From the NCBI RefSeq assembly GCF_035920365.1, contig NZ_CP109150.1, forward strand, positions 558,001 through 622,000: DNA of 64,000 nt, in the 5' to 3' direction. Shown here piece by piece: positions 25,616 to 58,689 of the stretch. Origin of the DNA: Micromonospora sp. NBC_01740 (lineage in GTDB: Bacteria > Actinomycetota > Actinomycetes > Mycobacteriales > Micromonosporaceae). The first letter of the stretch is position 1; the number at the start of each line of letters is the position of its first letter. The notes beneath the pieces were generated by a model. The model was not told the DNA's origin. It did not search any database and saw nothing but the letters and a program-made list of their open reading frames with translations. The translations under genes and the position numbers were made by a program.

Positions 25616-26662
25616 TCAGACGCTGACTGTCGTCAGCGGCATGGCGGAGTCGGCGGGCAGGTCCAGCCGGCTCGGCGCGACACCCGAGGCGACCAGGTGC
25701 GAGCCGAGGGCGGCGACCATCGCGCCGTTGTCCGTACAGAGCCCGGGTCGGGGCACCCGGACCCTGATGCCGTACGCGGCGGCGCGGTCCTCGGCCATCA
25801 CCCGCAGCCGGGAGTTGGCCGCCACGCCCCCGCCGATCACCAGCGTCTCGACGCCGGTGGACCGGCAGGCGTCCAGCGCCTTGCGTACCAGCACGTCGCA
25901 GACCGCCTCCTGGAAGGACGCGGCCACGTCGGCGACGGGCACCGGCTCACCGGCGCGCTGCCGCGCCTCGACCCACCGGGCCACCGCCGTCTTCAGTCCG
26001 GAGAAGGAGAAGTCGTAGCGGTGGGCGGCGAGGTCCTTGGGGGCGGTCAGGCCGCGCGGGAAGCCGATGGCCGCCGGGTCGCCGGCCCGGGCCTCCCGGT
26101 CGATGTACGGGCCGCCGGGGAACGGCAGCCCGAGCAGCCGGGCCACCTTGTCGAACGCCTCGCCGGCCGCGTCGTCGATGGTGGCGCCGAGCGGGGTGAC
26201 GCCCCGGGCCAGGTCGTCGACGAGCAGCAGGGAGGAGTGCCCGCCGGAGACCAGCAGGGCGATCGCCGGCTCGGGCAGCGGGCCGTGTTCCAGGGTGTCC
26301 ACGGCGACGTGCGCGGCGAGGTGGTTGACGCCGTAGACCGGCTTCTCGGCGGCGAGCGCGTAGCCCTTCGCGGCGGCCACCCCCACCAGCAGCGCGCCGG
26401 CCAGTCCCGGGCCGGAGGTGACCGCGATCGCGTCGATGTCGGCGAGGGTCACCCCCGCCTCCTTCAACGCCCGGTCCATGGTCGGCACGATGGCCTCCAG
26501 GTGGGCCCGGCTGGCCACCTCGGGCACCACGCCGCCGAAGCGGGCGTGCTGCTCGACGCTGGAGGCGAGCGCGTCGGCCAGCAGGGTGTGCCCGCGTACG
26601 ATGCCGACCCCGGTCTCGTCGCAGGAGGTCTCGATGCCGAGGATCAGGGGCTCGTCACTCAT
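25616..26662 (-). CDS. tsaD: tRNA N6-threonylcarbamoyladenosine synthase TsaD
   Basis: The catalytic subunit for t6A37 modification of ANN-decoding tRNAs; it transfers the threonylcarbamoyl group. The 348-residue ASKHA-fold protein starts [17 protein letters not shown], carries the iron-binding histidines in NHLAAHV, and has SGGHSSLLL and [11 protein letters not shown]. It overlaps rimI by 8 bp. Partners TsaB (27231..27908) and TsaE (29801..30283) are close by. Confidence 0.97.
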
Positions 26663-27116
26663 CGCTCACATCCTGCGTGCGCTGCATGACCAGCGCGTCG
26701 GTGTTGCTCGGTTGGTAGTAGCCGCGCCGTACGCCGATCGGCTCGAAGCCGTACGTCGCGTAGAGCTTCTGGGCGGGGGCGTTGTCCGCCGCGACCTCCA
26801 GCAGGACGCTGCGGACGCCGAGCCGGGCGGCCTCGGCGAGCAGCGCCTCCAGCAGGAGCCGGCCGACGCCGCGCCGCTGGGCGTCCCGGCGCACCGCGAC
26901 GTTCTGCACCCACGCCTCGTCGGGCGGGGCCACGGCGAGCCCGGCGTAGCCGAGCAGGTCGCCGTCGTCGCCGGTGGCGACCAGGTAGAAGTGCCCGTTG
27001 GCCAGCTCGTTCCAGAACATCGCCGCCGACCACTGCTCGGCGCCGAACAGGTCCGCCTCGATCGGCAGCACCTCGTCGACGTGCCACCACCGCAACCGCC
27101 CCAGCCGCACGCTCAC
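26655..27116 (-). CDS. rimI: Ribosomal protein S18-type N-acetyltransferase RimI
   Basis: A GNAT acetyltransferase of 153 residues. The acetyl-CoA phosphate loop RRGVG lies in [18 protein letters not shown], followed by [21 protein letters not shown], the RimI hallmark. In E. coli RimI acetylates S18; in actinobacteria TsaD-linked RimI may have wider targets. GTG 27116 overlaps the stop of a mini-ORF (GTGA) that carries its ribosome site GAGGTG. Confidence 0.92.
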
Positions 27117-27175
27117 GGCAACACCTCGGCTCGCGACTGCGGGGCTCGCAAACCCGGCTCACTCCTCGCGCTCAC
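27113..27175 (-). other. Relay mini-ORF B between tsaB and rimI (20 codons)
   Basis: GTG 27175 to TGA 27115-27113. The start overlaps the stop of mini-ORF A (GTGA) and the stop overlaps the rimI GTG (GTGA). It begins MSARSEPGLRAPQS. It is the second copy of a 59-bp tandem duplication and differs from copy A only in its last few bases. Confidence 0.6.
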
Positions 27176-27234
27176 GGCGCCACCTCGGCTCGCGACTGCG
27201 GGGCTCGCAAACCCGGCTCACTCCTCGCGCTCAC
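27172..27234 (-). other. Relay mini-ORF A between tsaB and rimI (20 codons)
   Basis: GTG 27234 to TGA 27174-27172. Its start lies on the tsaB stop (GTGA) and its stop on the start of mini-ORF B. The 59-bp unit carries its own GAGGTG ribosome site before the next GTG. Protein function is not implied; keeping ribosomes moving along the message is the likely effect. Confidence 0.6.
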
Positions 27235-27908
27235 GGCAGCACCGGCTTGCGGGCCGTCGCCGCCACGGCGTCCGGGCGGCGCAGGTAGAGCGGGGTGAGC
27301 GCCTCCGAGGGGACGCCGGCCCGGATGCGCTCGGCGGCCAGGGTCGCCAGCACGGCCGCGTCCGGGTAGCGGGGCTCGTCCCGCACGGGCAGGCCCAGCG
27401 CGTCCGCGTACCGGTGCGCGCCGTCGCCGACCGCGGCAGTGACGGCCAGACCGCGGGCGCGCCCGGCGGCGACCGCCGGCGCGGACACCTCCGGGCCGAC
27501 GATCCGCTGGCCCGCGCCGTCGTAGACCGCCCAGTAGATCTCCCGGCGGCGCGCGTCGCTCGCCGCCAGCACCGGCTCGCCGGCGGCCGCCGGGTGACCG
27601 ATGGCGTCCAGCGAGCAGACACCGTACGTCGGGACGCCCAGCACCTGGCCGATGGTGGCGGCGGTGACCAGCCCCACCCGCAGCCCGGTGAACGGGCCGG
27701 GGCCGAGCCCGGCGACGATCGCGCCCAGGTCGGCCGGGCGGGCGCCCGCCTCGGTGAGCACGGCGTCGACCTGCGGCGCGAGCAGTTCACCGTGGGCGCG
27801 GGCGTCGACCGTGCAGCGGTGCGCGCGGGTCGCGACACCGTCCGCCGCGACCTCCACCAGCGCCGCGGTCACCGCGGGGGTCGAGCTGTCCACCACCAGT
27901 ACGAGCAC
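27231..27908 (-). CDS. tsaB: t6A complex scaffold protein TsaB
   Basis: An ASKHA-fold partner of TsaD, 225 residues, without catalytic metal ligands. It begins MLVLVVDSSTPAVTAAL and contains GPGPFTGLRVGL, the TsaB signature. GTG 27908 has no Shine-Dalgarno; a TAGGCT box ends 8 bases upstream, so the transcript has a leader of one or two bases. It is the first gene of tsaB-rimI-tsaD. Confidence 0.95.
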   Translation of the reverse strand: MLVLVVDSSTPAVTAALVEVAADGVATRAHRCTVDARAHGELLAPQVDAVLTEAGARPADLGAIVAGLGPGPFTGLRVGLVTAATIGQVLGVPTYGVCSLDAIGHPAAAGEPVLAASDARRREIYWAVYDGAGQRIVGPEVSAPAVAAGRARGLAVTAAVGDGAHRYADALGLPVRDEPRYPDAAVLATLAAERIRAGVPSEALTPLYLRRPDAVAATARKPVLP

Positions 27909-49515: not shown

Positions 49516-50211
49516 CTATTCGCGACGGCCGCCGAACACGGCAAACCGCCACTGCTTGAAGAAGCAGTCGACGTCGACCAGGCCGGCCTCGGCCAGCCAG
49601 CGGCACTGCGCGGCGACCGGCGCCGGCCGGTCGTACGCCATCCGGCCCTCGGCGGCGGCGATCTCGTCGGCGTCGGAGCCCAGCGCCGCGACCTGCCCCA
49701 GCCACACCTCGTGGTACCGCCGGTCGAGCGCCGGGGTGGGGCCGGCGACCTGCTCGGCGTTGACGAAGACGCCGCCGGGGGCCAGCGCCGCCGGCACCCG
49801 CCGGTAGAGCTCGCGCTTGCCCGCGTCGTCGAGGTGGTGGATGGCCAGCGCGCTGACCACGGCGTCGTAGCGGCCGGCGGGCAACTCCCCCGCCAGGTCG
49901 GCCCGGACCGTCCGGTGCGCGACGCCGCGGGAGCGCAGGTGGTCGGCGGCGACGGCGAGCATGGCCGGCGCGGCGTCCACCAGGGTCAGCCGGATCCCCG
50001 GCACCGCCGCGGCGAGCAGCAGCGACAGCAGCCCGGTGCCCGCGCCCAGGTCCAGCACCTCCGGGGTACGCCCCGCGGCGAGCGCGGCCCGCAGCGGCGG
50101 CGCGGCCACCTCGACGGCGGTGCCGTAGAAGGCGTCGAAGCAGGGCACCAGGCGCCGTCGGGCCTCGTCGTAGCTGCCCGCGACCGCGTCGAAGGCCTCG
50201 GCCACGTTCAT
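49516..50211 (-). CDS. Class I SAM-dependent methyltransferase
   Basis: A 231-residue small-molecule methyltransferase with motif I VLDLGAGTGLLSLLL, acidic LVDAAP after strand two and SALAIHHLDD as motif IV. ATG 50211 follows GGGAGG. It is divergent from the nitrate operon and may share its control region. The substrate is unknown. Confidence 0.85.
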   Translation of the reverse strand: MNVAEAFDAVAGSYDEARRRLVPCFDAFYGTAVEVAAPPLRAALAAGRTPEVLDLGAGTGLLSLLLAAAVPGIRLTLVDAAPAMLAVAADHLRSRGVAHRTVRADLAGELPAGRYDAVVSALAIHHLDDAGKRELYRRVPAALAPGGVFVNAEQVAGPTPALDRRYHEVWLGQVAALGSDADEIAAAEGRMAYDRPAPVAAQCRWLAEAGLVDVDCFFKQWRFAVFGGRRE

Positions 50212-50292
50212 CGCGCCTCCCAAATGTCAGGATTGTTGTCCCATATTGTAAACGCGAGCCGGCCCGATGCCCGCATGCGGTGTGAGCGGCTC

Positions 50293-50330
50293 TTGACAGG
50301 ACCGAAACAGACGGGACCCGGACCGGAAAT
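50293..50330 (+). promoter_or_regulatory. GlnR-type box upstream of the nitrate operon
   Basis: TTGAC - 6 bases - GAAAC - 6 bases - GACCC - 6 bases - GAAAT. The four blocks have the exact spacing of actinobacterial GlnR sites (gTnAC-n6-GaAAc, twice); blocks 1, 2 and 4 match well and block 3 poorly. It ends 24 bp before the nasC start. Confidence 0.65.
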
Positions 50331-50354
50331 CGCCCCCCGGCACGCTTTGCCGAC

Positions 50355-52478
50355 ATGACAGACGGTGCACACGCGGCGACCGGACCGGGGCGGACGCCCC
50401 GGGAGGTGGCGACGCACTGCCCGTACTGCGCCCTCCAGTGCGGGATGACGCTGCGCGAGGAGGCCGGCCGGGCGACGGTGCTCCCCCGGCAGTTCCCCAC
50501 CAACCGGGGCGGCCTCTGCCAGAAGGGCTGGACCGCCGCCGAACTGCTCGACCACCCCGAGCGGCTGACCACCCCGCTGCTGCGGGACGCGGCCAGCGGC
50601 GAACTGCGCCCGGCGAGCTGGGCCGCTGCCCTCGACCGGATCGTCACCGGCCTGCGCACCGTCCAGCAGGGACACGGCCGCGACGCGGTCGCCGTCTTCG
50701 GCGGCGGCGGGCTCACCAACGAGAAGGCGTACGCGCTGGGGAAGTTCGCCCGGGTGGCGCTGCGCACGAGGCACATCGACTACAACGGACGGTTCTGCAT
50801 GTCCTCGGCGGCGGCGGCCGGGATGCGCGCCTTCGGCATCGACCGGGGCCTGCCGTTCCCGCTGGCCGACCTGGGCCGGGCCGACACGCTGCTGCTGGTC
50901 GGCGCGAACCCGGCGGAGACCATGCCCCCGCTGGTGCGCTGGCTGACCGAGCAGCGCGAGCGCGGCGGCCGGCTGATCGTGGTCGACCCCCGGGTCACCG
51001 CCACCGCCCGCCAGGCCGACCTGCACCTGCAACCCCTGCCCGGCACCGACCTGGCGGTGGCGAACGCGCTGCTGCACGTCGCGCTCACCGAGGGCTGGAT
51101 CGACCGGGAGTACGTGGCCGCCCGTACCACCGGCTTCGAGGCGGTCCGCCGCAGCGTGGCCAGCTGGTGGCCGGCCCGCGCCGAGGCGCTCTCCGGGGTG
51201 CCGGTGGCCGACCTGGAGGCGACCGCCCGGGCCCTCGGCACCGCCGAACGCGTGATCATCCTGACCGCGCGCGGCGCCGAGCAGCACGCCAAGGGCGTCG
51301 ACACCGTCGCCGCCTTCGTCAACCTGGCGCTCGCCCTCGGGCTGCCCGGCCGCCCCGGCTCCGGCTACGGCTGCCTGACCGGGCAGGGCAACGGGCAGGG
51401 CGGGCGGGAGCACGGGCAGAAGGCCGACCAGCTCCCCGGCTACCGCAGGATCGACGACCCGGCCGCCCGGGAACACGTCGCCGGGGTCTGGGGGGTGCCG
51501 GCCGACGAACTGCCCGGGCCGGGCGTGCCGGCGTACGAGCTGCTGGACTCGCTGGGCACGCCCGACGGGCCGAAGGCGCTGCTGGTCTTCGGCTCCAACC
51601 CGGTGGTCTCCGCGCCCCGGGCCGCCCGGATCGAGGGCCGGCTACGCGATCTCGACCTGCTGGTGGTCGCCGACTTCCTGCTCTCCGAGACCGCCGCGCT
51701 CGCCGACGTGGTGCTGCCCACGGCCCAGTGGGCCGAGGAGGACGGCACGATGACCAACCTGGAGGGCCGGGTGCTGCGCCGCCGCGCGCTGCGCCCGCCG
51801 CCGCCCGGCGTCCGTACCGACCTGGAGATCCTCGCCGACCTCACCGCCCGCCTCCGGGGTGGTGCCGGTGGGGCGGACGCCAGCGATCCGCGGGTCGTGT
51901 TCGCGGAGCTGCGGCGGGCCTCGGCCGGCGGGATCGCCGACTACGCCGGGGTGAGCTGGGAGCGGATCGACGAACGCGACGGGGTGTTCTGGCCCTGCCC
52001 GGCCGAGGACGGCCCGGACACCCCCCGGCTCTTCGCCGACCGCTTTCCCACCCCCGACGGGCGGGCCCGGTTCCACGCCGTGGAGCACCGGCCGGCGGCC
52101 GAGGAGGTGTGCGCCGAGTACCCGCTGCACTTCACCACCGGCCGGGTCCTCGCGCAGTACCAGTCGGGCACCCAGACCCGCCGGGTCGCCGCACTGCGCC
52201 GGGCCGCCCCGGACGCGTTCGTCGAGCTGCACCCCGACCTGGCCGGGTGGCTCGGCATCGACGACGGCGAGCCGGTGCGGGTGGTCTCCCGTCGGGGCGA
52301 GTTCTGCGCGCCGGCCCGGTTCAGCACCGCGATCCGGCCGGACACCGTCTTCGCGCCGTTCCACTGGGGCGGCGGCGCGCGGGCCAACTCGGTCACCAAC
52401 GACGCCGTCGACCCGGTCTCCGGGATGCCGGAGTTCAAGATCTGCGCCGTCCGGCTGGAGAGGGTGGAGCAACCATGA
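50355..52478 (+). CDS. nasC: Assimilatory nitrate reductase, molybdopterin catalytic subunit
   Basis: Reduces nitrate to nitrite in the cytoplasm. The 707-residue protein binds an N-terminal [4Fe-4S] through Cys22, Cys25, Cys29 and Cys55 and a bis-MGD molybdenum with Cys148 (NGRFCMSSA). The MGD-binding GCLTGQGNGQGGREHGQK loop and C-terminal cap are present. No Tat signal is seen, so it is cytoplasmic. Its stop TGA overlaps the ATG of a 14-codon mini-ORF. Confidence 0.95.
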   Translation: MTDGAHAATGPGRTPREVATHCPYCALQCGMTLREEAGRATVLPRQFPTNRGGLCQKGWTAAELLDHPERLTTPLLRDAASGELRPASWAAALDRIVTGLRTVQQGHGRDAVAVFGGGGLTNEKAYALGKFARVALRTRHIDYNGRFCMSSAAAAGMRAFGIDRGLPFPLADLGRADTLLLVGANPAETMPPLVRWLTEQRERGGRLIVVDPRVTATARQADLHLQPLPGTDLAVANALLHVALTEGWIDREYVAARTTGFEAVRRSVASWWPARAEALSGVPVADLEATARALGTAERVIILTARGAEQHAKGVDTVAAFVNLALALGLPGRPGSGYGCLTGQGNGQGGREHGQKADQLPGYRRIDDPAAREHVAGVWGVPADELPGPGVPAYELLDSLGTPDGPKALLVFGSNPVVSAPRAARIEGRLRDLDLLVVADFLLSETAALADVVLPTAQWAEEDGTMTNLEGRVLRRRALRPPPPGVRTDLEILADLTARLRGGAGGADASDPRVVFAELRRASAGGIADYAGVSWERIDERDGVFWPCPAEDGPDTPRLFADRFPTPDGRARFHAVEHRPAAEEVCAEYPLHFTTGRVLAQYQSGTQTRRVAALRRAAPDAFVELHPDLAGWLGIDDGEPVRVVSRRGEFCAPARFSTAIRPDTVFAPFHWGGGARANSVTNDAVDPVSGMPEFKICAVRLERVEQP

Positions 52479-52519
52479 GCGAGCGAATCGTCCGGCAGGG
52501 CCCGGTGACGCGGCCGTGA
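52475..52519 (+). other. Relay mini-ORF 1 of the nitrate operon (14 codons)
   Basis: ATG 52475 overlaps the nasC stop (ATGA) and TGA 52517-52519 overlaps the next GTG (GTGA). It encodes MSERIVRQGPVTRP. Its first six codons mirror those of the next gene, suggesting a duplicated start region. Confidence 0.6.
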
Positions 52520-53955
52520 GCGAACGCGTCGTGATCATCGGCAACGGGATGGCCGGCTCAAGGCTGGCCGGCGAGCTGCACGCCCGGGGCGGGGACCGGA
52601 AGGTCACCGTGCTCGGCGCGGAGCCGCACCGGGCGTACAACCGGATCATGCTCTCCACCCTGCTGGCGGGCAAGGTCGGCGAGCCGGACGTGGAGCTGGC
52701 CGAGGCCGCCGGGCAGGGCGTCGACCTGCGTACCGGCGTGACGGTCACCGCCATCGACCGCGCCGCCGGCACGGTCCACACCGACGACGGCGACCGCGTC
52801 GCGTACGACCATCTGGTGCTCGCCACCGGGAGCCGGGCCGTGGTGCCGCCGCTGCCCGGGCTGGACGGGCCCGGGCTGCCGGAGCGGGTGGTGCGGTTCC
52901 GCACGCTTGACGACTGCCGCCGGATCCTCGCTGTGGCCGACGGCGCGCGCAGCGCCCTGGTGCTCGGTGGCGGGCTGCTCGGGCTGGAGGCGGCGCGCGG
53001 GCTCGCCGCCCGGGGTCTCGACGTCGGGGTGGTGCACCCGGTGCCGTACCTGATGGAGCGGCAGCTCGACCCGGCCGGCGCGGCCGTCCTGGCCGGCACG
53101 CTCGCGGGCCTCGGGGTGACCACCCACCTGGCCGTGTCGGCCACCGGGGTGGTCGCGGACGCCGACGGGGTCCGCCTCGACCTGGCCGACGGCCGATCAC
53201 TCGCCGCCGACCTGCTGGTCCTCTCCTGCGGGGTACGCCCCGACACCGCCCTCGCCCGCGCGGCCGGGCTGGCCGTGGAACGGGGCGTGCTGGTCGACGA
53301 CCGGTTGCGCACCAGCGACCCGCGCATCTCGGCGGTCGGCGACTGCGCCCAGCACGACGGCAACCTCACCGGGCTGGTCGCCCCGGCCTGGGCGCAGGCC
53401 CGGGTGGTGGCGCAGGTGCTCACCGGGGAGGACCCGCAGGCCCGCTACCGGCCCCGGCCGGTGGTGACCCGGCTCAAGGCGACCGGCATCGATCTCGCCG
53501 CCATGGGTGACCCGGGCGACGGCGGGGCCGGCGAGGAGCTGACCTTCGCGGACCCGTCCCGGGGCACGTACGCCCGGCTGCGCATCCACGACGAGCGGCT
53601 GACCGCCGCGATCCTGCTCGGCGACAACCCGGCGGTCGGCACGGTCATCCAGCTCTTCGACCGGGGCCAGCCGGTGCCGGCCGACCGGCGCTCGCTGCTG
53701 CTCGGCCGGGCGTTCGGCGCGGCGGCAGCGGCGCCCGCCGCGACGCCGGCCCTGATGCCGGACGCGGCGACCGTCTGCCAGTGCAACAACGTCAGCAAGG
53801 GGGCGCTGGTGGGCTGCTGGCGTGCCGGGGCCCGGACGGTCGACACCGTGGTCGCCGCGACCCGGGCCGGCACGGGGTGCGGCGGCTGCCGGGACGCGGT
53901 CGCCGGCATCGTCGGCTGGCTGTCCGAGGTGGATTCGGCGGAGGTGGCGTCATGA
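52516..53955 (+). CDS. FAD-NAD(P)H reductase with Bfd-type [2Fe-2S] domain (nitrate reductase partner)
   Basis: A 479-residue electron-transfer protein. The FAD-binding GNGMAG (9-14), NAD-binding GGGLLG (about 156-161) and GDCAQH resemble the N-terminal half of NirB. The C-terminal Bfd-like domain has Cys421, Cys423, Cys455 and Cys458 (CxC...CxxC) for a [2Fe-2S]. By position it feeds NAD(P)H electrons to the nitrate reductase, like NasB of Klebsiella or Bacillus. GTG 52516. Confidence 0.88.
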   Translation: MSERVVIIGNGMAGSRLAGELHARGGDRKVTVLGAEPHRAYNRIMLSTLLAGKVGEPDVELAEAAGQGVDLRTGVTVTAIDRAAGTVHTDDGDRVAYDHLVLATGSRAVVPPLPGLDGPGLPERVVRFRTLDDCRRILAVADGARSALVLGGGLLGLEAARGLAARGLDVGVVHPVPYLMERQLDPAGAAVLAGTLAGLGVTTHLAVSATGVVADADGVRLDLADGRSLAADLLVLSCGVRPDTALARAAGLAVERGVLVDDRLRTSDPRISAVGDCAQHDGNLTGLVAPAWAQARVVAQVLTGEDPQARYRPRPVVTRLKATGIDLAAMGDPGDGGAGEELTFADPSRGTYARLRIHDERLTAAILLGDNPAVGTVIQLFDRGQPVPADRRSLLLGRAFGAAAAAPAATPALMPDAATVCQCNNVSKGALVGCWRAGARTVDTVVAATRAGTGCGGCRDAVAGIVGWLSEVDSAEVAS

Positions 53956-54035
53956 ACGAGCGAAGCGAGCGAATCAGCAAACTCAGCGCGACGGTGCCTC
54001 ATGACGGCACGCAGCGGAGCGGAGTGCGGTCATGA
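53952..54035 (+). other. Relay mini-ORF 2 of the nitrate operon (27 codons)
   Basis: ATG 53952 overlaps the upstream stop (ATGA) and TGA 54033-54035 overlaps the nirB ATG (ATGA). It begins MNERSERISKLS. GAGCGAATCAGCAA inside it matches the start region of nirB. It carries GGAG before the nirB start. Confidence 0.6.
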
Positions 54036-56557
54036 GCGGGCGAATCAGCAGGTTGGTCGTCGTCGGCAACGGGATGGTGGGGCAGCGCTTCGTCGACGCG
54101 CTGCGCGCCCGTGACCCCGGGGGGCGGTGGCGGGTCACCGTGCTCGCCGAGGAGAGCCGCCCGGCGTACGACCGGGTGCGGCTCTCGGCGTTCTTCGACG
54201 GGGTCGGCGCCGAGGAGCTGAGCCTGCACACCCCCGACGACGGGGTGGAGCTGCGCCTGGGTGAGCCGGCCACGGAGATCGACCGGGAGCGGCGGCTGGT
54301 GCGCACCGCGACCGGCGAGCACCCGTACGACGCGCTGGTGCTGGCCACCGGCTCGTCCGCGTTCGTGCCGCCGGTGGCCGGCGCGTCCCTGCCCGGGGTC
54401 TTCGTCTACCGGACGCTGGACGACCTGGAGGCGATCCGGGAGCACGCGGCGGGCCGGCGGACGGGGGCGGTGATCGGCGGCGGGCTGCTCGGGCTGGAGG
54501 CGGCGAACGCGCTGCGGCTGCTCGGGTTGGACACCAGCGTGGTGGAGTTCGCGCCCCGGCTGATGCCGGTGCAGGTGGACACGGCCGGTGGCGCGATGCT
54601 CCGCCGGTACGTCGACGAGCTGGGCGTGACCACCCACCTGGGCGTGGCCACCACCGCGATCCGGTCCGGCCCGGACGGCACGGTCGCCGGGCTGGAACTG
54701 GCCGACGGGAGCGTGCTCGACGCCGACCTGGTGGTGGTCGCGGCGGGCATCCGGCCCCGCGACGAGTTGGCCCGGGCGGCCGGGCTCGCCCTGGGCCCGC
54801 GCGGCGGCGTGCTGGTCGACGGCGCCTGCCGTACCGCCGACGAGCGGATCTGGGCGGTCGGCGAGTGCGCGGCGGTCGACGGCGTCTGCCACGGCCTGGT
54901 CGCCCCCGGGTACGCCATGGCCGAGGTCGTCGCCGACCGGCTGGTCGGCGGGGCGGCCACCTTCCCCGGCGCGGACACCGCCACCAAGCTGAAGCTGCTC
55001 GGCGTGGACGTGGCCTCGTTCGGCGACGCGCACGGCACGACGCCGGGCTGCCTCGACGTGACGTTCACCGACCCGGCCACCCGGGTCTACGCCAAGCTGG
55101 TCCTCTCCGACGACGCGCAGACCCTGCTCGGCGGGGTGCTGGTCGGCGACGCGAGCGCGTACCCGACGCTGCGGGCCAGCGTCGGCGGCCCGCTGCCCGG
55201 GCCGCCGCTGGCGTTGCTCGCCCCGGAGGGCGCGGCGGGCGTGGGCGCCGGCGCGCTGCCCGCCACCGCGCAGGTCTGTTCCTGCAACGCGGTGACCCGC
55301 GCGGACGTGGACGCGGCGATCGCCGGCGGCTGCGCGGACGTGCCGGCGCTGAAGGCGTGCACCCGGGCGGGTACGAGCTGCGGCTCCTGCGTGCCGATGC
55401 TCAAGCAGCTCCTCGACGCGGCTGGGGTGCGGCAGTCCACCGCGCTCTGCGAGCACTTCGACGTCAGCCGGCAGGAACTCTTCGACATCGTCCGGGTACG
55501 CGGCATCCGCACCTTCTCGCAGCTCGTCGCCGAGCACGGCCGGGGCCGCGGCTGCGACATCTGCAAGCCGGTGGTCGCCTCGATCCTCGCCTCCCTCGGT
55601 ACCGGCCACGTGCTGGACGGGGAGCAGGCGTCGTTGCAGGACACCAACGACCACTTCCTGGCCAACCTGCAACGCGACGGCAGTTACTCGGTGGTGCCCC
55701 GGATCCCCGGCGGCGAGATCACCCCGGAGAAGCTCATCGTGATCGGCGAGGTGGCCCGGGACTTCCAGCTCTACACGAAGATCACCGGCGGGCAGCGGAT
55801 CGACCTGTTCGGGGCCCGGGTCGACCAGCTGCCGCAGATCTGGCGCCGGCTGGTCGACGCCGGCTTCGAGTCCGGCCACGCGTACGGCAAGGCGCTGCGC
55901 ACGGTGAAGTCCTGCGTCGGCGAGACGTGGTGCCGGTACGGGGTACAGGACTCGGTCGGGCTGGCCGTCGCCCTGGAGCTGCGCTACCGGGGGCTGCGCG
56001 GTCCACACAAGATCAAGTCGGCGGTCTCGGGCTGCGCCCGCGAGTGCGCCGAGGCGCGCAGCAAGGACTTCGGCATCATCGCCACCGAGACCGGCTGGAA
56101 CCTCTACGTCGGCGGCAACGGCGGCTTCCGGCCCCGGCACGCCGACCTCTTCGCCACCGACCTGTCGACGGAGGCGCTGGTCCAGCTCATCGACAGGTTC
56201 CTGATGTACTACATCCGCACCGCCGACCGGCTGCAACGCACCGCCGCCTGGATCGAGGCGATGGAGGGCGGGCTGGACCACCTCCGCGCGGTGATCGTGG
56301 ACGACTCGCTCGGCCTCTGCGCCGAACTCGACGCCGCGATGGCCCGGCACGTCGACGCCTACTCCGACGAGTGGCGCGACGTGCTGGAGGACCCGGTCCG
56401 GCTGCGCCGGTTCGACTCCTTCGTCAACGCCCCCGGGGTGCCCGACCCGTCCATCACGTTCGCGCGCGAGCGGGGCCAACCGGTCCCGGTGGGCCCGGCG
56501 CAGGTCGGCGAGGGCCGGCAGCCGGTCACGCTGGGCATGCCGGAGGTGCGGCGATGA
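54032..56557 (+). CDS. nirB: NADH-dependent nitrite reductase, large subunit
   Basis: Reduces nitrite to ammonium with six electrons, 841 residues. In order: FAD domain (GNGMVG, 12-17), NAD domain (GGGLLG near 149), Bfd-type CSCN...TSCGSC [2Fe-2S] region, and a siroheme/[4Fe-4S] domain with Cys628-x5-Cys634 and Cys668-x3-Cys672. All cluster ligands are present. It is followed by nirD across a duplicated junction. Confidence 0.97.
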   Translation: MSGRISRLVVVGNGMVGQRFVDALRARDPGGRWRVTVLAEESRPAYDRVRLSAFFDGVGAEELSLHTPDDGVELRLGEPATEIDRERRLVRTATGEHPYDALVLATGSSAFVPPVAGASLPGVFVYRTLDDLEAIREHAAGRRTGAVIGGGLLGLEAANALRLLGLDTSVVEFAPRLMPVQVDTAGGAMLRRYVDELGVTTHLGVATTAIRSGPDGTVAGLELADGSVLDADLVVVAAGIRPRDELARAAGLALGPRGGVLVDGACRTADERIWAVGECAAVDGVCHGLVAPGYAMAEVVADRLVGGAATFPGADTATKLKLLGVDVASFGDAHGTTPGCLDVTFTDPATRVYAKLVLSDDAQTLLGGVLVGDASAYPTLRASVGGPLPGPPLALLAPEGAAGVGAGALPATAQVCSCNAVTRADVDAAIAGGCADVPALKACTRAGTSCGSCVPMLKQLLDAAGVRQSTALCEHFDVSRQELFDIVRVRGIRTFSQLVAEHGRGRGCDICKPVVASILASLGTGHVLDGEQASLQDTNDHFLANLQRDGSYSVVPRIPGGEITPEKLIVIGEVARDFQLYTKITGGQRIDLFGARVDQLPQIWRRLVDAGFESGHAYGKALRTVKSCVGETWCRYGVQDSVGLAVALELRYRGLRGPHKIKSAVSGCARECAEARSKDFGIIATETGWNLYVGGNGGFRPRHADLFATDLSTEALVQLIDRFLMYYIRTADRLQRTAAWIEAMEGGLDHLRAVIVDDSLGLCAELDAAMARHVDAYSDEWRDVLEDPVRLRRFDSFVNAPGVPDPSITFARERGQPVPVGPAQVGEGRQPVTLGMPEVRR

Positions 56558-56595
56558 CCACCACGACGCCCCGACTGCCGGAGGTACGGCGATGA
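56554..56595 (+). other. Relay mini-ORF 3 of the nitrate operon (13 codons)
   Basis: ATG 56554 overlaps the nirB stop (ATGA) and TGA 56593-56595 overlaps the nirD ATG (ATGA). It encodes MTTTTPRLPEVRR; the 20 bp around its start (56539-56558) recur with one change at 56577-56596. The ribosome site GGAGGT is carried in each copy. Confidence 0.65.
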
Positions 56596-56948
56596 CGATC
56601 ACGATGCCCAACCCGACGCGCACCTGGACGCCGGTCTGCCCGCTCGACCGGCTGGACCCCGACCGGGGCGTCGCCGCGCTCGTCGACGGCGTGCAGGTGG
56701 CTCTCTTCCGCACCGCCGACGGGCTGTTCGCCCTCGACAACCGCGACCCGGTCTCCGGGGCGTACGTGCTGTCGCGGGGAATCGTCGGCAGCCGGGGCGG
56801 GGTGCCGACGGTCGCCTCGCCCCTGCACAAGCAGGTGTACGACCTGCGCACCGGGGTCTGCCTGGACCTGCCCGGCGTCGCCGCTCCCCGGCACGACGTG
56901 CGCTGCCGGGACGGCCTGGTCGAGGTGCGGCTGCGACAGGAGGAGTGA
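56592..56948 (+). CDS. nirD: NADH-dependent nitrite reductase, small subunit
   Basis: A Rieske-fold subunit of 118 residues, starting MTITMPNPTRTWTPVCPLDRL. The cluster ligands of true Rieske proteins are missing (FALDNRDP and SPLHKQ in their place), as normal for NirD, which does not bind a cluster. It ends just before the HemD fusion gene. Confidence 0.95.
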   Translation: MTITMPNPTRTWTPVCPLDRLDPDRGVAALVDGVQVALFRTADGLFALDNRDPVSGAYVLSRGIVGSRGGVPTVASPLHKQVYDLRTGVCLDLPGVAAPRHDVRCRDGLVEVRLRQEE

Positions 56949-58037
56949 ATGCGCGACGAACTGGCGGGCTTCACCATCGGGGTGACCGCCGACCGCCGGC
57001 GGGACGAACTCGCCGCGCTGCTCCAACGGCGCGGCGCCCGGGTGGTGATCGCCCCGGCCCTGCGGATCGTGCCGCTGGCCGACGACACCGACCTGCGGGA
57101 GGCCACCCGGGCCTGCCTGGACCGGCCGCCGGACGTCCTGATGGCCAACACCGGCATCGGCATGCGCGGCTGGTTGGAGGCGGCCGAGGGCTGGGGGCTG
57201 GCCGAGCCGCTGCGCAACGTCCTGGCGGACGCGTACGTGGTGGCCCGCGGGCCCAAGGCGCGCGGGGCCATCCGGGCCGCCGGCCTGCACGACCAGTGGT
57301 CACCCGACTCGGAGAGCTGCGACGAGGTGATCGAGCACCTGTGCCGGCGCGGCGTGGCCGGGCAGGTGGTCGCCATGCAGCTGCACGGCGAGCGGCAGCC
57401 CGAGTGCACGCTGGCGCTGGAGGCTGCCGGGGCCACCGTGATCGAGGTGCCCGTCTACCGCTGGGCGCCGCCGACCGACCCGGCCCCGCTGCACCGGCTG
57501 ATCGACCTGGTCGCCGGCCGGCTGGTCGACGCGGTCACCTTCACCTCGGCCCCGGCGGCCGAGGCGCTGCTGCGCGCCGCCGGGGACCGCTCCGAGGCGG
57601 TGCTGGACGCGTTCCGGGGCGACGTGCTCGCCAGTTGCGTGGGCGCGGTCACCGCGGAGCCGCTGCTGCGGCGCGGGGTGCCGGTCAGCGCGCCGGCCAG
57701 GGCCCGCCTGGGCGCCCTGGTCCGGACCATCGTCGACGAACTGCCGCGCCGGACGGTCACCCTGAAGGTGGCCGGTCACCTGCTCACGCTACGCGGGCAC
57801 GCCGCCGTGGTCGACGGCGAACTGCGTCCGCTCGCGCCGGCGCCGATGGCGGTGCTGCGGGCGCTGTGCGGCTCGCCGGGTCGGGTGCTGTCCCGGACCG
57901 CCCTGCTGCGTACGCTGCCGCGCGGCGCCGACGAGCACGCCGTGGAGATGGCGGTGGCCCGGCTGCGCGCCGGGTTGCGCGCGCCCCGGGTGGTGCAGAC
58001 GGTCGTCAAGCGCGGCTACCGCCTCCGGGTCGACTGA
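56949..58037 (+). CDS. hemD: Uroporphyrinogen-III synthase fused to a winged-helix regulator
   Basis: A 362-residue fusion. The N-terminal part (about 1-265) is a HemD-type bidomain with FTIGVTADRRRDEL at the start and VTFTSAPAAEALL near 195. The C-terminal part (about 275-362) is an OmpR-type DNA-binding domain (APMAVLRALCGSPGRVLSRTALL, ending VVQTVVKRGYRLRV). It adjoins nirBD, whose siroheme needs uroporphyrinogen III, and may both supply precursor and regulate the operon. Similar fusions sit by nitrite genes in other actinobacteria. Whether the synthase part is active is unknown. Confidence 0.88.
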   Translation: MRDELAGFTIGVTADRRRDELAALLQRRGARVVIAPALRIVPLADDTDLREATRACLDRPPDVLMANTGIGMRGWLEAAEGWGLAEPLRNVLADAYVVARGPKARGAIRAAGLHDQWSPDSESCDEVIEHLCRRGVAGQVVAMQLHGERQPECTLALEAAGATVIEVPVYRWAPPTDPAPLHRLIDLVAGRLVDAVTFTSAPAAEALLRAAGDRSEAVLDAFRGDVLASCVGAVTAEPLLRRGVPVSAPARARLGALVRTIVDELPRRTVTLKVAGHLLTLRGHAAVVDGELRPLAPAPMAVLRALCGSPGRVLSRTALLRTLPRGADEHAVEMAVARLRAGLRAPRVVQTVVKRGYRLRVD

Positions 58038-58065
58038 CGCGACCCGGAGGCGGGAGCCGTCCCGA

Positions 58066-58689
58066 TCAGCCGACCGGCGCCGGGTAGCCCCGGCCGTGCT
58101 CGGCCTCGAGGCGGAGCATGGCGTGCTCGACGACGGTCACCAGCACCTGCTTGACCGCGTCCCGGTGCCGGGCGTCGGTCAGCACCAGCGGCACGTCCGG
58201 CGAGATGGCCAGCGCCTCGCGGACCTCCTCCAGCTCGTACTGCGGCGCGCCGTCGAAGCGGTTCAACGCCACGACGTACGGCAGCCGACGGTTCTCGAAG
58301 TAGTCCAGCGGCGCGAAGGCGTCGGTGATCCGGCGGGTGTCCACCAGCACGGCCGCCCCCACGGCGCCCTTGATGATCTCGTCCCACATGAACCAGAACC
58401 GGGTCTGGCCGGGCGTGCCGAAGAGGTACAGGATCAGGTCCTCGGCCATGGTGATCCGGCCGAAGTCCATGGCGACCGTGGTGGTCTGCTTCCCCGGCAC
58501 CTTGGACGGGTCGTCGATGCCGACACCGGCCGCGGTCATCACCGCCTCGGTTCTCAGCGGGGTGATCTCCGAGATCGCGCCGACCAGGGTCGTCTTGCCC
58601 ACGCCGAAGCCACCCGCGACCACGATCTTCGCGGAGATGATTCCCCGGTTTCGGCGGGCCCCGGCGGGGTCATAGCCTGCGAAGTCCAC
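58066..58689 (-). CDS. Conservon GTPase (CvnD type)
   Basis: A small Ras/MglA-like GTPase of 207 residues. P-loop GGFGVGKTT (26-34), switch-II-like LFGTPGQTRF, and base motif NRFD (in place of NKxD). It is the last gene of the four-gene conservon and overlaps the DUF742 gene by 20 bp. Confidence 0.93.
   Translation of the reverse strand: MDFAGYDPAGARRNRGIISAKIVVAGGFGVGKTTLVGAISEITPLRTEAVMTAAGVGIDDPSKVPGKQTTTVAMDFGRITMAEDLILYLFGTPGQTRFWFMWDEIIKGAVGAAVLVDTRRITDAFAPLDYFENRRLPYVVALNRFDGAPQYELEEVREALAISPDVPLVLTDARHRDAVKQVLVTVVEHAMLRLEAEHGRGYPAPVG

Follow-up and report, generated by a model that had tools for sequence, protein, structure and literature searches.

Genes and junctions of the nir operon

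The window analyzed in this article is a stretch of 64,000 nucleotides from the 7.3-Mb, one-contig genome of Micromonospora sp. NBC_01740. Encoded in its run 50355–58037 are a nitrate reductase similar to NasC, a NasB-like reductase that resembles the N-terminal portion of NirB, NirB itself, NirD, and a member of the uroporphyrinogen-III synthase family. The junctions between the first four genes are named J1, J2, and J3, and each of them contains a putative relay mini-ORF. The features of the locus are as follows.

50355–52478, plus strand: nasC-like gene, catalytic subunit of assimilatory nitrate reductase, 5′ gene of J1 (NF047855 at 784 bits, below the cut-off of 1100; molybdopterin domains)
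52475–52519, plus strand: J1 relay mini-ORF of 14 codons, MSERIVRQGPVTRP; 41-bp insert, most likely a shortened family A relic
52516–53955, plus strand: NasB-like FAD/[2Fe-2S] reductase (TIGR02374 positions 1–464 of 794 at 386 bits, below cut-off; Pyr_redox_2, Fer2_BFD)
53952–54031, plus strand: family A unit of 80 bp, reading ATGA, then an SD-like GGAG, then the next ATGA (nhmmer E 2.9e-21 with the unit profile)
53952–54035, plus strand: J2 relay mini-ORF of 27 codons, MNERSERISKLSATVPHDGTQRSGVRS; 80-bp insert (sequence and ORF list)
54032–56557, plus strand: nirB, nitrite reductase large subunit (TIGR02374 at 1054 bits); first codons similar to a relic of a fused unit
56538–56609, plus strand: 38-bp tandem duplication of the nirB end/nirD start region (88% over 34 nt)
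56554–56595, plus strand: J3 relay mini-ORF of 13 codons, MTTTTPRLPEVRR; 38-bp insert (sequence and ORF list)
56592–56948, plus strand: nirD, nitrite reductase small subunit, Rieske type (TIGR02378 above cut-off; Rieske_2)

All three mini-ORFs run from the stop of the upstream gene to the start of the downstream gene. At J1, the nasC stop is contained in the ATGA at 52475–52478 and the reductase starts with the GTGA at 52516. At J2, the upstream ATGA lies at 53952 and the nirB start ATGA at 54032; at J3, the corresponding positions are 56554 and, for the nirD start ATGA, 56592. The inserts of 41, 80, and 38 bp leave remainder 2 on division by three in 3/3 cases. A previous, sequence-only reading of the window had described these three consecutive mini-ORFs and their insert lengths, and both are borne out by the sequence and the ORF list. 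Its wording that every junction of the operon is built in this way applies to the three named junctions and fails at the fourth co-directional one, from nirD to the uroporphyrinogen-III synthase family gene, where TGA is directly followed by ATG (56946–56951) without a mini-ORF. The remainder of the step lengths is no evidence by itself because it follows from the construction of the chain, which is defined here as the path that leads from an upstream stop over successive starts overlapping at −4 or as TGATG.

Origin of the three inserts

The J2 insert is a single 80-bp unit of a dispersed repeat, herein called family A. It shares 81–91% identity with other places of the genus among the matches listed. 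At J1, the genome G025 carries 80 bp that can be aligned with the family A consensus from one end to the other, and 0/2000 shuffles align as well; for the 41-bp insert of the window, 3/2000 shuffles score equal or higher. Because of the full unit at the same place in G025 and of this shuffle score, the J1 insert is most likely a family A unit shortened by 39 bp in all, as judged by sequence comparison. The length of 41 bp recurs in G125 and G086. For G095, where 315/2000 shuffles match or surpass the stretch compared with the same consensus, the score is uninformative because the stretch was placed some bases off.

The J3 insert is, by its sequence, a local 38-bp tandem duplication, and the 38-bp step is also present in G125, G025, G086, and G095. 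Descent of J3 from family A was considered and rejected, since 1379/2000 shuffles score as well.

Empty and filled sites are found side by side among 40 relatives (the 20 best matches of a search and 20 hand-picked from the remainder). The bare 4-base overlap ATGA or GTGA is the commonest state, with 28 relatives at J1, 25 at J2, and 32 at J3, according to our own start calls. Among the filled sites, J1 holds a unit in G025, G146, and G120, J2 in the window, G086, and other genomes, and J3 in G044. Insert sizes across species are 80, 71, 41, and 26 bp at J1, and 71, 68, 62, 155, and 179 bp, besides 80 bp, at J2; family A ancestry was checked for part of these variants.

Spread and placement of family A

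Family A is a short dispersed repeat with tandem copies, for which a spacing of 80 bp is common. A 111-bp query consisting of J2 and its flanks matches in 130/151 Micromonospora genomes, often in tandem at 77–80 bp spacing. With a 33-base core and up to two mismatches, 108/151 genomes of the genus are matched at 0–39 places each, and the reversed-pattern control gives 0. Among 298 genomes of the order, which represent 76 genera, 37 were matched, all within one genus, and no match of the pattern was obtained outside Micromonospora. Contigs picked up with a repeat pattern belong to M. lupini, M. lutea, M. thermarum, M. noduli, and an unclassified strain of the Micromonosporaceae.

For the study of placement, family A loci were taken from the searches and from 80 chosen stretches, many of them in copy-rich genomes. 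The 133 arrays collected reduce to 112 distinct ones and, after removal of four at locus ends and three without a left xTGA, to 105. Of these, 69 begin at the stop of a gene upstream, and for 36 our own gene calls show no overlapping upstream gene. Exact ending on a called downstream start is seen for 83/112 arrays, and 113/142 unit steps measure exactly 80 bp. The array G001:C124:6698–7189 contains six units in tandem at exactly 80 bp. In L038 (G000:C1:1529712–1529825, the genome of the window) and in L180, two units about 81 bp apart fuse to one longer mini-ORF. L180 holds the only 81-bp unit; both pairs total 161 bp, which again leaves remainder 2, and the total length of the fused mini-ORF still allows it to end on a gene start.

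A carrier was sought in plasmid records by blastn and in viral contigs by exact patterns, and neither search gave a match. Hairpins do not stand out: compared with shuffles, the stability z scores of the family A consensus and the J2 unit are −0.33 and 1.52 as DNA and 0.04 and 1.82 as RNA, respectively.

Family B and the tsaB–rimI junction

A scan of 464 kb of the window's genome revealed a second repeat, family B, which opens with GTGAGCGCGAGG and has a unit of about 56–66 bp. It occurs at 47 places in this genome and is matched in 101/101 genomes of the genus searched. Among 200 genomes of the order, it was found in 23 genomes of the genus and at eight places in one genome of a sister genus of the family; single matches in nine further genomes are at the level of the reversed-pattern control. 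Forty-one of 47 family B arrays begin exactly on the stop of the upstream gene, a count that leaves out ten arrays without a recognizable element start and three at edges.

One family B array lies in the window, on the minus strand, between two genes that were named by interpretation.

27231–27908, minus strand: tsaB-like gene upstream of the array (Pfam TsaD-family match; start codon uncertain; the name tsaB is an interpretation)
27117–27234, minus strand: family B array of two 59-bp units with two 20-codon relay mini-ORFs, 27234–27172 and 27175–27113
26655–27116, minus strand: rimI-like GNAT acetyltransferase downstream of the array (GNAT domains; the name rimI is an interpretation from gene order)

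The chain at this junction is intact in 30/30 genomes, the window's included, with 20 lacking a mini-ORF and ten containing one to three. By eye, these ten comprise seven clear family B cases, one B-like remnant (L292), one unclear case (L298), and one junction with two family A units (L283).

Conservation of frame and peptide

Among the 123 nir junctions of 41 genomes, 122 lead into the following gene in the frame of that gene: 96 do so directly, in some cases with in-frame extensions, and 26 via one or two mini-ORFs. The exception, J1 of G117, has no overlapping start; none of the 123 chains is broken. The insert lengths include 26, 38, 41, 62, 68, 71, 80, 155, and 179 bp. Across the repeat arrays, an intact chain leads into a coding-like frame in 104/105 cases for family A and in 46/47 for family B, the latter including two in-frame fusions. 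The sole failing family B chain is the four-unit array L187, which lies behind a gene ending with TAG and does not start on the stop of an upstream gene.

Random indels placed in the arrays give the scale for these counts: −1 leaves 30–37% of the chains intact (63–70% broken), +1 or −2 leaves 77–87% through in-frame fusion, and −3 leaves 96–98%. The chain test alone is thus weak against +1 and −2 changes because an in-frame fusion keeps the chain intact. Owing to these weaknesses, more weight is given to unit lengths, chain-independent frame offsets, and the avoidance of stops. In all of these the copies share ancestry, meaning that counts are not independent events.

Unit lengths were counted for full-span matches, namely, 125 of 179 places or 116 distinct units, with a profile built from 80-bp units. 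Because of this restriction, strongly shortened copies, J1 among them, are outside the set. Of the 116 units, 115 measure 80 bp or differ from it by a multiple of three. A compensating +1/−1 pair, which puts part of the peptide into another frame, is present in 53 of them and probably goes back to one ancestral change. When the downstream coding frame is judged without the chain, it is offset by 2 in 65/70 decided single-unit family A arrays and in 24/26 family B arrays; by eye, the five exceptions in family A include some misjudged frames or wrong left ends and one in-frame fusion, and family B has two exceptions.

The relay frame is open in 116/116 family A units, as compared with 83 and 64 units for the other two frames. 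Among the 112 units of 80 bp, one-step stops are present in 0 units for the relay frame and in 34 and 57 units for the others, at 13, 24, and 26 possible changes, respectively. The ratios of synonymous to nonsynonymous changes (0.344 and 0.388) are similar to those expected under uniform change (0.317 and 0.333). There is therefore no synonymous bias, and a function of the peptide was set aside. As far as sequence statistics can tell, it is the frame of the relay units that is preserved and not the peptide.

Mini-ORFs expected by chance

Starts that overlap a stop were compared with other nearby starts in 464 kb, consisting of the window and 20 stretches, where genes were called from the G+C of the codon positions and not with a gene finder. 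The sample is not fully random, as one stretch, L188, was chosen to cover an array already known. A mini-ORF arises from 8/43 stop-overlapping starts vs 31/335 other starts (one-sided Fisher p = 0.059). This corresponds to an approximately twofold enrichment, and four of the eight lie in the window, three of them being J1, J2, and J3. From stop-overlapping starts to a possible downstream [AG]TGA, the distances fall 16/8/5 over remainders 2/0/1, with several starts per gene that are not independent. A lone double-overlap frame is not striking; three consecutive ones, together with their behavior in relatives, exceed chance.

Further double-overlap mini-ORFs were seen without a recognized repeat. 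On the minus strand of the window, a 19-codon mini-ORF from 34109 overlaps both neighbors and may be due to chance. Two more, of 13 and 30 codons, lie elsewhere in the same genome (L197 and L198) and belong by eye to neither family A nor family B.

Proposed mechanism and alternative explanations

With high probability, the J2 and most likely the J1 inserts are copies of family A, mobile mini-cistrons that would be transparent to translation and whose chain-breaking relatives appear to have been purged, and the J3 insert is the product of local duplication. Family A would be a mobile, nonautonomous repeat that inserts in sense orientation just before an xTGA start, mostly within a stop–start overlap. 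The unit's own ATGA would then provide both the stop of the upstream gene and the start of the unit, followed by about 27 dispensable codons and an SD-like GGAG ahead of the next xTGA start. A terminating ribosome is predicted to reinitiate first at the mini-ORF and then at the gene behind it. Since each unit brings its own start, stop, and SD-like site, inserted or tandem units should be transparent to translation. Copies with chain-breaking indels appear to be purged, and copies that keep the chain or are fused in frame would survive. J3 arrived at the same geometry through its 38-bp duplication, and family B shares the design, mostly at GTGA sites.

The sequence-only reading had proposed that local duplication of gene starts produced all three inserts. 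For J3, the tandem copy agrees with this proposal. J2 contradicts it by its resemblance to other places of the genus, and for J1 the full unit of G025 would have to be a separate, later insertion, which makes duplication throughout very improbable. A common origin of all junctions is thereby abandoned in favor of a genus-wide dispersed repeat at J2 and most likely at J1. The related idea that units of ribosome-site-like sequence, start, and first codons are inserted or duplicated, almost only in chain-keeping configurations, agrees with the sequences, single origin excepted. Chance open frames in G+C-rich DNA have in their favor that 9.3% of the control starts also end on a possible downstream start; recurrence and frame preservation over 41 and 30 genomes and 116 units, taken together, refute them, and this explanation is hardly credible.

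Another rival assumes selfish repeats that were born with their length and frame and are too young to have decayed, without any selection after insertion. The prevalence of exactly 80-bp steps fits with it, and so do the many sites that are empty in relatives, as many insertions may be young. Against it, diverged and deleted inserts keep the chain (80, 71, 41, and 26 bp at J1; 71, 68, 62, 155, and 179 bp at J2), and stops are found in both other frames and not in the relay frame, which also offers fewer possible one-step stops. Such repeats without selection are rather improbable. Adaptive control, in which mini-ORFs tune the downstream/upstream protein ratio or serve as promoters, along the lines proposed for the senX3–regX3 MIRUs, fares slightly better and is still unlikely. 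The intergenic region of senX3–regX3 that contains MIRUs is described in PMC4213456 as having promoter activity, and the number of mini-ORFs at tsaB–rimI ranges from 0 to 3. This reading is opposed by the patchy presence among relatives, by the absence of a sigma-70–like site in 50200–58100 (a consensus little suited to this G+C), and by the lack of any Rfam 15 match at gathering score in 50000–58500. No terminator consensus was found at the nir locus.

Beyond the mobile mini-cistrons at the nir junctions, stop–start overlaps could be a general landing site, at which family A (mostly ATGA), family B (mostly GTGA), and local duplications converge on the mini-cistron, the choice of target is linked to the translation junction, and relics become N termini (nirB, the reductase, and rimI). 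This extension is tentative and on balance doubtful. The clearest sign that the junction itself is the target is the occurrence of both families at one overlap, tsaB–rimI. If the extension is correct, translational coupling would serve a class of mobile DNA as its substrate and would open a way to new gene starts.

Comparison with known systems

MIRUs share the orientation of their downstream gene. Families A and B do so as well, which is implied by the chain in 104/105 and 46/47 arrays. In architecture, and without regard to sequence, both families resemble MIRUs in being short dispersed repeats with tandem copies at start codons, whose element ORF overlaps the next gene by 4 nt. MIRUs are portrayed in a passage of PMC12548453, which cites Supply et al. 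(1997), as apparently mobile repeats that insert at start codons with the MIRU ORF coupled at −4 nt. The previous remark that no named class was known is hence to be corrected. PMC4213456 gives unit sizes of 77 bp and 53 bp, both of which leave remainder 2 by our calculation, and reports the units from M. leprae and the tuberculosis complex only. The families described herein differ in belonging to another genus, Micromonospora, and in consisting of two families with units of 80 and about 56–66 bp, for which statistics of indels, stops, and codons are given in this article. By the anatomy of its units, the design is the one already known from mycobacteria. What is added is the same strategy outside mycobacteria, in two families, with sequence evidence that the frame and not the peptide is kept.

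REP/BIME and MITE-like repeats typically contain palindromes or inverted repeats. By contrast, the family A consensus and the J2 unit folded no more stably than their shuffles, and the units keep a fixed orientation and frame relative to the downstream gene. REP/BIME and MITE-like repeats (PMC2817692, PMC2229807, PMC2759123) are likewise short, dispersed, intergenic, and devoid of their own transposase. Coupling through an upstream ORF, e.g., iraD of E. coli (PMC5574718), similarly joins a short ORF to the downstream gene; it concerns a single site, in contrast to a repeat dispersed between genes. In the open-licence PMC literature, no description of repeats such as families A and B was found, in Micromonospora or generally.

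If the proposed relay is real, operon junctions can take up DNA that brings its relay along, and gene pairs at which the number of units varies would offer natural tests of termination–reinitiation.

Possible relics at gene starts

The likeness between mini-ORF starts and the start of the next gene, pointed out before, is real: it amounts to 88% over 34 nt at J3, and AGCGAGCGAATCAGCA-type repeats are present at J1, J2, and the nirB start. In part, it looks like the relics of units fused to genes, as is seen by eye for nirB in this clade when G125, G025, and the window are compared with G086. Relay units may in this manner turn into new protein N termini. Some "hypothetical" ORFs of Micromonospora with roughly 20 to 27 residues, as well as odd N termini, may be relay units or their relics. 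N termini of nirB or rimI in the window (54032–54055), L074, L075, L079, and L301 resemble the fused beginnings of family A units, the A-like relic of L301 being, by eye, fused in frame to rimI.
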